From NCBI RefSeq assembly GCF_949152215.1, contig NZ_OX424407.1:1-64000 (forward strand): a DNA stretch of 64,000 nucleotides, written 5' to 3'. The translations under genes and the position numbers were made by a program. How positions within the stretch are numbered: the first letter of the stretch is position 1; each line of letters begins with the position of its first letter. Below the pieces are notes generated by a model. That model was given only the letters and a program-made list of their open reading frames with translations, was not told the origin of the DNA and made no database searches. The stretch comes from Lancefieldella sp. Marseille-Q7238 (GTDB lineage: Bacteria; Actinomycetota; Coriobacteriia; Coriobacteriales; Atopobiaceae). Shown here piece after piece: positions 9,718-12,606 of this stretch.

Positions 9718-9730
9718 TTCTGTAACAGAA
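9718..9730. promoter_or_regulatory. Palindromic candidate operator before surface-protein gene
   Basis: TTCTGT-A-ACAGAA is a perfect 13-base palindrome 40 bases before the ATG at 9771. It lies just downstream of an AT-rich TATACAAT stretch (about 9708-9715) that could be a -10 element. Position and symmetry suggest a binding site for a dimeric regulator. The regulator is unknown. Confidence 0.4.
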
Positions 9731-9770
9731 ACTATATCGCGTAAAAACAAGCAGTAAGAGAAGGTGGCGT

Positions 9771-12506
9771 ATGAAGAAGACAGGGTCTTTGATCTTAAGT
9801 TTGTTTCTGGCAGTCAGCCTGTCATTTTTAGGTGGCATGCCGCGGGCTCAAGCTCAAGAGATTGACTCTCCTATAACTCAGACATCTACCAATGAGCGAC
9901 AAGAGGATGCCGTATCAGAAGAGACATCGACAGATGCTGCGGCAAAGGAAGTAATCTCAGAGGAAAAGACATACAAAACGCCTGAGACAGATGCGAGTTC
10001 TAAGGCGCCCGCGGGCTCCGAAGCGCCTGTGAGTCCTGAGGCAGCGCAGGCGACATCGCTTCTTCGTGTGCCCGCTCAAGCAACTGTTTCAACGGAACAG
10101 GAATTAAAGGATGCTATCGCCGCTGCTCCCGCGGGACAAAAAACCGACATTGTTCTTTCCGGAGATATTACGGTGTCCGAAACTATTACCGTTCCTGCTG
10201 GGAAAGACGTGAGATTAACGACAAACGGAGCTTCAGCAAGTCTTGTAGCGGCGAGTCCCTCAATAAGCTATCTCATGTCGGTTGAGGCGACCGCAGCGCT
10301 TACCATCGACGGGGATGTTACCTTTGATGGTGCAAGCAAAGCCTACTACGTAACGTGCGCGGGAGCCTTGACGCTTGAAAATGGTGTCATGAAGAATGGC
10401 TCGAGTGCCTCTTCTCCTGCCGGTGGCGTGTATGTATACGGTTCTTCTGCTACTTTTACCATGAATGGCGGTACGATTTCCAACACGGAGCTTGTGTACT
10501 CCAATAACGGCGCCGTACACCTTGATAAGGGCGCAACAGGTACCATGAACGGCGGAACTATTGAGAACACTGCGATTAAAAATCAGTTTTCCGGTAGCGT
10601 TTTGGTTAGTCAGTCCAGCTTTACGATGACGGGTGGCACTATCACGGGCGGTGATGGTGGCCAGCAGATTCAGACGGCTGGTGGCGTTATGGTACTGGCG
10701 CTCGATCACAGCAATAAGGGTGTTACCTCGTCATTTACCATGACCGGTGGCGCCATCACAGGAAATAAAGCACCCTTCGGAGGCGGCGTATACGTTTATG
10801 GTGGCAGCCCTCAGTATGCCGATTTTCATTCCAAAGCATATTTCACCATGAACGGCGGCTCCATTGACAACAATAAAGCTACCGGTGTTGTAGCAGCTGA
10901 TGGCAGCTTTATAAGTGGTGGAGGAGGCGGCGTTTACGTTCAGTGCGGCGGCAACTTTACGCTCAATGACGGAAGCATCTCCAATAACATCGCAACCGGC
11001 ATGGGCGGCGCAGTGGCAACCTTTGACATGTTTACCGACTATTTTGGTAAGAAGCCCTACTCGGAGGCAGCCGGCCAGTATTACGACATTAACTACAAGA
11101 ACTGGCCTGATTTCTATCCCGCTTCCTTTACTATGAACGGCGGCTCCTTGAAGAATAATACCGCAACCGGTACCGATATCACCAGTGACGCAGGCTGCGG
11201 CGGCGCGGTCTACTCGGCATCTCATAACGTGGTGTTGAATGCTGGAGAAATTATCGGCAACAAAGCAGACCGTCAAGGCGGCGGAGCATATGTGGGTTCC
11301 GTGCCCTATTCGCTGACTGCCTACAATGCTGAAGTTACCTCCAATACCGCTTCCGTTATCGGCGGAGGCGCATGGTTTTGTCCCACGGGAGAGGCGTCCT
11401 TCTCGGTTAATGAAGGCTCGGCCGTATATGGTAATACCGCGGCTGGTGCTGGCGATGATATCGCTGCTGTTCGCATGCAGAACAACGGTGCCAAGACCAA
11501 CATCGCGGAGCGCATGCTTGGCGGAGGATCTTATAACTGGCATAAGGATGGCGGTATCCTGACACCTCACGTTCTCGGTGAACCTGATCCTGATGCACCT
11601 CGTGCCGATGCTGGTGGCGAGGCTGTCAAAGACGTGCATGATAGTACGGAGTCTTGGGCTCTGAAAGCGTCTCCCTCGGCTACAGGCATCGCTCTCGCAC
11701 ATGCCAAAGCCAAACTGACCATAAGCGACAACTCCGCGGCTCGCGGTGGTGGTATCGGCTCAAACGGTGAAGTTACTTTGGGCAATCCTGTGACCGAGGC
11801 TAAGCAGCTGACTGTCAAAAAAGTATGGAATACCACCCCAAGCCCTTCGGCTACTGTTCCTGAATCGCTGACAGTGTGGCTCGTTGTCAATGGCCAGCGT
11901 ACTGAAAGCGTTACGCTGAGCGCCGCGAACAATTGGACACATACGTTTACCGGTCTTCCAATGGACGCTGAGGCAACGATTGAAGAGGACGTGCCTGAAG
12001 GCTGGATGCAGACGACTGAAACCAAGGTGATAAGCTCCACGTCTACTGAGATTACCCTTACCAACACCATTAAACCGACCCCTGAGACCACCCATATCTC
12101 TGTCAAAAAAGTGTGGGTAGGAAAGAAGGGTTCGTCCGTTACCATCCATTTGTTGGCCGATGGCCAGGATACCGGTAAGACACTGACGCTTTCTGAAGCA
12201 AATGGTTGGTCTGGTACGTTTGATGCTCTCGAGAAGAATGCCGCTGACGGCCATGAAATCGCCTATACGGTAACGGAAGACGAGGTCTCTGGCTATACCT
12301 CAAAAGTAGAGGGAAGCGCTACTGACGGTTTTACCGTAACAAATACCGAGACGCCTCAGGACACACCAAAGCCCAAGAAAGATCGGCCCCGTAAAGTTCC
12401 TGACATGGGAGATACGAGCCTTTCAGGCGTGGTTATCCCGCTTGCTCTTGGAGCATGTATCCTTCTTGGTGCAGGAGTCTATCTCAGAAGAAGCAATGCG
12501 CAATAG
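9771..12506 (+). CDS. Secreted beta-helix surface protein with two Cna-B domains and a variant sorting signal
   Basis: This 911-residue protein is built for the cell surface. It has a signal peptide (residues 1-28, cleavage near AQA-QE), a low-complexity Glu/Ala/Thr-rich linker to about residue 100, then a right-handed beta-helix-like region (about 110-660) made of recurrent 'TMNGGTI', 'TMTGGAI' and 'TMNGGSI' rungs. Two Cna-B-like domains follow, each opening with 'VKKVW' (about 680-765 and 775-860). The C-terminus has a sorting-signal architecture: VPDMGD at 876-881, a hydrophobic segment, then RRSNAQ. The usual LPxTG threonine is replaced by methionine, which is odd. AGAAGG precedes the ATG. 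A role in adhesion is inferred; no ligand is known. Confidence 0.9.
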   Translation: MKKTGSLILSLFLAVSLSFLGGMPRAQAQEIDSPITQTSTNERQEDAVSEETSTDAAAKEVISEEKTYKTPETDASSKAPAGSEAPVSPEAAQATSLLRVPAQATVSTEQELKDAIAAAPAGQKTDIVLSGDITVSETITVPAGKDVRLTTNGASASLVAASPSISYLMSVEATAALTIDGDVTFDGASKAYYVTCAGALTLENGVMKNGSSASSPAGGVYVYGSSATFTMNGGTISNTELVYSNNGAVHLDKGATGTMNGGTIENTAIKNQFSGSVLVSQSSFTMTGGTITGGDGGQQIQTAGGVMVLALDHSNKGVTSSFTMTGGAITGNKAPFGGGVYVYGGSPQYADFHSKAYFTMNGGSIDNNKATGVVAADGSFISGGGGGVYVQCGGNFTLNDGSISNNIATGMGGAVATFDMFTDYFGKKPYSEAAGQYYDINYKNWPDFYPASFTMNGGSLKNNTATGTDITSDAGCGGAVYSASHNVVLNAGEIIGNKADRQGGGAYVGSVPYSLTAYNAEVTSNTASVIGGGAWFCPTGEASFSVNEGSAVYGNTAAGAGDDIAAVRMQNNGAKTNIAERMLGGGSYNWHKDGGILTPHVLGEPDPDAPRADAGGEAVKDVHDSTESWALKASPSATGIALAHAKAKLTISDNSAARGGGIGSNGEVTLGNPVTEAKQLTVKKVWNTTPSPSATVPESLTVWLVVNGQRTESVTLSAANNWTHTFTGLPMDAEATIEEDVPEGWMQTTETKVISSTSTEITLTNTIKPTPETTHISVKKVWVGKKGSSVTIHLLADGQDTGKTLTLSEANGWSGTFDALEKNAADGHEIAYTVTEDEVSGYTSKVEGSATDGFTVTNTETPQDTPKPKKDRPRKVPDMGDTSLSGVVIPLALGACILLGAGVYLRRSNAQ

Positions 12507-12580
12507 ACAGCGCATCAAAACAGACTTTGTGAGGTAGCAGAGGAGAGTCATTCTTCTCTTGTGATACGCAACCAGTGAAA

Positions 12581-12606
12581 CGCCGCCCGTAAGGGCGGCG
12601 TTTTTA
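12581..12606 (+). terminator. Rho-independent terminator of surface-protein gene
   Basis: CGCCGCCC-GTAA-GGGCGGCG (8-bp stem, 12581-12600) is followed directly by TTTTT. It ends the surface-protein transcript and separates it from the convergent minus-strand gene ending at 12619. Confidence 0.9.

Follow-up and report, generated by a model that had tools for sequence, protein, structure and literature searches.

Judging from sequence comparison, the C-terminal motif VPDMGD of a 911-residue surface protein of Lancefieldella sp. Marseille-Q7238 probably functions as a variant sorting signal. The gene lies in the window, a 64-kb stretch at the start of a single-contig genome of 1,599,921 bp (hereafter G000). 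Among named genomes searched, one relative was recovered, Atopobium sp. oral taxon 199 F0494, with 100% identity in the best segment, which places the organism in or very close to that species. We consider it fairly likely that VPDMGD works as a variant LPXTG signal, which would be cleaved between Met and Gly and joined to the cell wall by a class B housekeeping sortase that takes either Thr or Met at P1. The observations behind this proposal are the motif itself, its recurrence, the exchange of Thr and Met from one orthologue to another and the sortases detected in the genomes; anchoring through Met by the class B sortase is our best reading of them. The features of the gene and its surroundings are listed in Table 1.

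Table 1. Positions in the window of the surface protein gene, its parts and its flanking elements.
Feature	Position	Strand	Basis
Palindrome TTCTGT-A-ACAGAA, near chance level, function unsupported	9718..9730	.	Sequence and simulation
Sorting-signal surface protein, 911 aa, probable adhesin	9771..12506	+	ORF with ATG start; Pfam
Signal-peptide-like N-terminus, residues 1-29	9771..9857	+	By eye from translation
Repetitive beta-rich region, residues 100-676, probable right-handed beta-helix	10068..11798	+	Single-sequence model, Foldseek
Cna_B domain 1	11811..12068	+	Domain match, E 2.3e-11
Cna_B domain 2	12096..12347	+	Domain match, E 8.9e-23
VPDMGD sorting motif with P1 Met; cleavage predicted to follow the Met	12396..12413	+	Sequence and pattern search
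Hydrophobic segment of sorting signal	12429..12485	+	Sequence
Charged tail RRSNAQ	12486..12503	+	Sequence
Terminator-like stem-loop, 12 pairs, 8 G-C, 3' of the 9771-12506 gene	12577..12604	+	Stem-loop search

The C-terminus of the open reading frame, RPRKVPDMGDTSLSGVVIPLALGACILLGAGVYLRRSNAQ, consists of a proline motif, a hydrophobic stretch and an Arg-containing tail, and the complete sorting signal described by the first-pass annotation is confirmed in the translation. The protein resembles LPXTG proteins in its modular build, its surface type and its signal-peptide-like start, and its signal shares with those of LPXTG proteins (Pfam PF00746 Gram_pos_anchor, NCBIfam TIGR01167) the C-terminal P-x-x-G, the hydrophobic stretch and the positively charged tail. 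It departs from them in carrying Met instead of Thr at P1, and scored 13.8 bits against the TIGR01167 anchor model, below the cut-off of 15.9 bits. Pfam assigned Cna_B to the protein (E 7.2e-32), and its best PDB relative by sequence was the collagen adhesin 1d2p (E 7.2e-31). As in the B region of staphylococcal Cna (1d2p), Cna_B repeats stand ahead of the sorting signal, whereas the N-terminal region is repetitive and beta-rich, with no match to the collagen-binding region in the 1d2p sequence search. A single-sequence model of residues 100-676 was beta-rich with repeated short strands, at a mean pLDDT of 57 that denotes low confidence. In a Foldseek search with this model no hit reached E 0.001, and the best neighbours, all weaker than this, were mostly beta-helix proteins. 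Based on this model, the window protein is a probable beta-helix adhesin.

The first-pass annotation had left two possibilities, a sortase of altered specificity or a decayed motif, and expected that anchoring would be refuted if no other proteins carried the motif and the protein occurred only in culture fluid. On the sequence side this refutation fails, since other PxMGD and PxMSD signals exist, four more with Met in the same genome and others in relatives. A PxMGD pattern searched in the DNA of G000 gave six matches compared with one for the reversed control, and four of the six were C-terminal sorting signals. A profile built from ten signals of the genome recovered the same four and added IPDMSD as a fifth. 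In total, 12 sorting signals were found in G000, five with Met at P1 (VPDMGD, VPYMGD, LPQMGD, IPGMGD and IPDMSD) and seven with Thr (VPYTGD twice, LPVTGD, LPTTAG, LPETGD, LPHTGT and LPQTSD). The other four Met-type proteins are diverse; VWA domains together with GBS104-like tip-pilin domains occur in two of them, of which one has MucBP in addition, while the remaining two have an MBG domain and only a weak repeat match, respectively. Thus, Met-type signals such as VPDMGD recur in this genome above chance, and VPDMGD is not a lone decayed relic.

We then compared the signals with those of relatives, of which G003 belongs to the same species as G000 and G001, G002 and G004 to the same genus. The numbers of Met and Thr signals read were five and seven in G000, five and five in G003, two and five in G002, one and eight in G001, and none and 12 in G004, the last of which counts against the Met reading. 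The window gene is 100% identical in G003, while its orthologue in G004, at 46-49% identity, ends in TPYTGD. A second case is a protein of 1360 residues, which carries VPYMGD in G000, G003 and G002 but TPYTGD in G001 and G004, the G000 protein being 37-38% identical to the G001 and G004 versions over the stretches available. Third, the LPQMGD protein of G000 has a counterpart with LPQTGD and 81% identity in G027, a member of another genus. This counterpart is a VWA surface protein (L165, G027:C1:1873114-1876242), and such identity across genera may reflect gene transfer. The IPDMSD motif is unchanged between G000 and G002 while 15 of the 28 tail residues differ (0.010 in a test of motif against tail), and the same test was not significant for VPYMGD (0.215 and 0.543); conservation of the motif relative to the tail therefore appears strong for IPDMSD only. 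The proposal that VPDMGD is a decayed motif is not supported.

Signals with Met at P1 also occur in other genera, as LPKMGD in G080, NPDMSD in G061 and IPAMSD in G130. We surveyed 140 genomes of the family with a Met-weighted profile and read 65 places outside the genus, with many more listed. P1 was Thr in 55 of these, Met in three, Ser in one and Ala in one, and five could not be parsed. Two of the five were read by eye as Met at P1, namely LPQMDD (L285, G071) and VADMSD (L300, G061), both with further changes in the motif. From these sequences, Met at P1 appears to be rare yet recurrent in the family and common in the species studied here. An enrichment of Met in the genus relative to the family was considered and is not significant (8/40 against 5/65, Fisher p 0.074), where the five include the two read by eye. 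These counts come from uneven ascertainment, with two of the searches built for Met; LPGMGD of G001, for example, came to light with the Met pattern although the mixed profile had not detected it, and eight profile rows at E 0.1 to 1, which held no signal or were unread, were left out.

Two sortases of the Pfam family were found in G000, a class C enzyme in a pilus cluster and a class B enzyme (G000:C1:989904-990602, - strand). The cluster around the class C sortase holds three of the seven Thr signals. One of its genes, that of the VWA pilin ending in LPTTAG (L023 11734-14348 in G000:C1:886001-906000, - strand), is interrupted at a run of A and G homopolymers and occupies two frames, through either slipped-strand phase variation or a sequencing error. 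The class B enzyme scored 163.1 bits against the class B model TIGR03064, above the cut-off of 153.75; its PDB relatives are sortase B chains, and it contains the TLxTC catalytic motif and the downstream Arg (TLVTCNYSDQYGR). Matches to TIGR03064 at E 1e-6 were found in 138 of the 140 family genomes, 73 of them above the cut-off, and in all 101 genomes of good quality. G002 and G004 have one sortase each by Pfam, and that of G002 is class B. Since G002 carries both Met and Thr signals and a single sortase was found in it, one enzyme most likely serves both types, unless G002 has a further sortase that the Pfam family does not cover or that falls in a gap of the assembly.

We also considered whether residue x of the class B TLxTC motif acts as a gatekeeper of the S1 pocket that sets the choice at P1. 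Within the genus, x is Val or Ile in G000, G003 and G002 and Phe in G001 and G004. The genomes with Val or Ile (G000 and G002) have seven Met and 12 Thr signals and those with Phe (G001 and G004) have one and 20 (Fisher p 0.017, from four species that are not independent). Across 71 parsed sortase frames, which take in some class B sortases other than the housekeeping one, x is S, C, V, T, I, G, F or A. Because x varies so widely, it does not explain the P1 choice in the family, and the gatekeeper was rejected as a family-wide rule. Separately, in G061 (L187 71-1632) the NPDMSD gene starts 11 bp downstream of a gene for a class B-like sortase whose score is under the class B cut-off, and transposase-like ORFs, recognised by eye, come next; the sortase and the NPDMSD protein are possibly a dedicated P1-Met enzyme-substrate pair.

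In the mechanism that we favor, the window protein would be exported and then held by its hydrophobic tail, the motif would be cut between Met and Gly, and the class B sortase, acting as a housekeeping enzyme that accepts both P1 Thr and P1 Met, would join the Met carboxyl to peptidoglycan to give a wall-linked product. That a class B sortase can serve several substrates by itself has a precedent in Clostridioides difficile SrtB, which PMC4155245 describes as a general sortase for several surface proteins with (S/P)PXTG. The substrates reported there all have Thr at P1, unlike those with Met in G000, and P4 is Ser or Pro in them compared with V, L, I or T here. Hydrophobic residues at P1 are known from class A enzymes: five of eight class A sortases took P1 Leu in vitro as well as or better than Thr, with the Leu sitting in a hydrophobic S1 pocket (PMC10763551). 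The present case is alike in that a hydrophobic residue would fill the S1 pocket instead of Thr, but that work concerns class A sortases and Leu in synthetic peptides, whereas here the signals with Met are natural ones and the enzyme proposed for them belongs to class B.

Catalysis by class B enzymes is a point at which this mechanism meets tension. PMC11987632 proposes that the P1 Thr hydroxyl contributes to the oxyanion hole, and in a model of C. difficile SrtB this hydroxyl is hydrogen-bonded to the catalytic Arg (PMC5118464). Met at P1 cannot take these roles, which favors a different possibility, that the Met signals stay uncleaved, so that the proteins are held in the membrane by the hydrophobic segment and charged tail or are shed, and that PxMGD is the remnant of a former sortase signal. 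The same possibility fits the behavior of the NCBIfam LPXTG anchor model TIGR01167, which was passed by none of the five Met signals of G000 compared with both Thr signals tested. On the other hand, the same substitution occurs in five separate proteins of one genome with the rest of the motif intact, and these identical substitutions count against decay because random decay should give varied residues. Outside the genus as well, the non-Thr residues at P1 were mostly Met in the places parsed with the Met-weighted profile, and IPDMSD is intact over 15 changes in its tail. We therefore regard uncleaved signals as unlikely.

It seems more doubtful still that the Met-type signals have a transpeptidase of their own, distinct from the class B housekeeping sortase. 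Candidates for such an enzyme can be named, as a class C sortase is also encoded in G000 and the Met-type gene of G061 adjoins its own class B-like sortase. Against it, Pfam shows only the two sortases in G000 and the one in G002, where both signal types occur, although this count would miss a sortase hidden by a gap in the assembly or one that does not belong to the Pfam family, and by gene position none of the Met-type genes of G000 is near either sortase. The altered specificity put forward by the first-pass annotation thus stands in one part: a specificity that admits VPDMGD is supported by the recurrence, the relatives and the Thr/Met swaps, and a separate dedicated sortase is not needed, as judged from G002.

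The first-pass annotation had further suggested that the palindrome upstream of the gene might allow regulated or phase-dependent display. This question is independent of anchoring. The palindrome is present exactly as noted, and with perfect arms of 6 bp and a distance of 40 bp to the start codon it would suit an operator or phase switch. It is also found in G003, which says little because the gene there is identical. Perfect repeats of this form, with arms of 6 bp around a loop of 1 nt, number 16 in the window, and the chance of at least one such repeat in simulated stretches of the length and composition of the upstream stretch was 0.06, or 0.29 with loops of 0-6. No other exact copy was found in G000, and copies with up to one mismatch (four places) were at the level of the reversed control (three). 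One contrary result, to which we give little weight, is that two-mismatch copies in the window (six, the site itself included) exceeded the counts in all 100 shuffles (mean 1.9). The G004 orthologue has no such repeat in the 260 bp ahead of it, and a palindrome regulon was rejected on the lack of recurrence at other promoters together with this lack of conservation. The suggestion accordingly finds no support, and a role of the palindrome in display is very improbable.

P1 Thr has been treated as a near-constant of sortase signals. Among open-access papers, none was found that mentions sortase together with LPXMG, and terms for PXMG variant motifs returned one unrelated paper. Since the curated anchor model misses all five Met signals here, Met-type proteins can be absent from lists of surface proteins. 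P1-Met signals might also provide a new enzyme-tag pair for protein ligation. More tentatively, and at slightly less than an even chance in our estimation, the class B housekeeping sortase of Atopobiaceae may be natively bispecific at P1, anchoring through Thr or Met with a catalysis independent of the Thr hydroxyl, in which case more than half of the non-pilus signals of the species (five of nine) would be linked to the wall via Met. A natural set of P1-Met signals, together with near-universal class B matches in the family, would make it possible to test directly whether the Thr hydroxyl has the catalytic role proposed for it.
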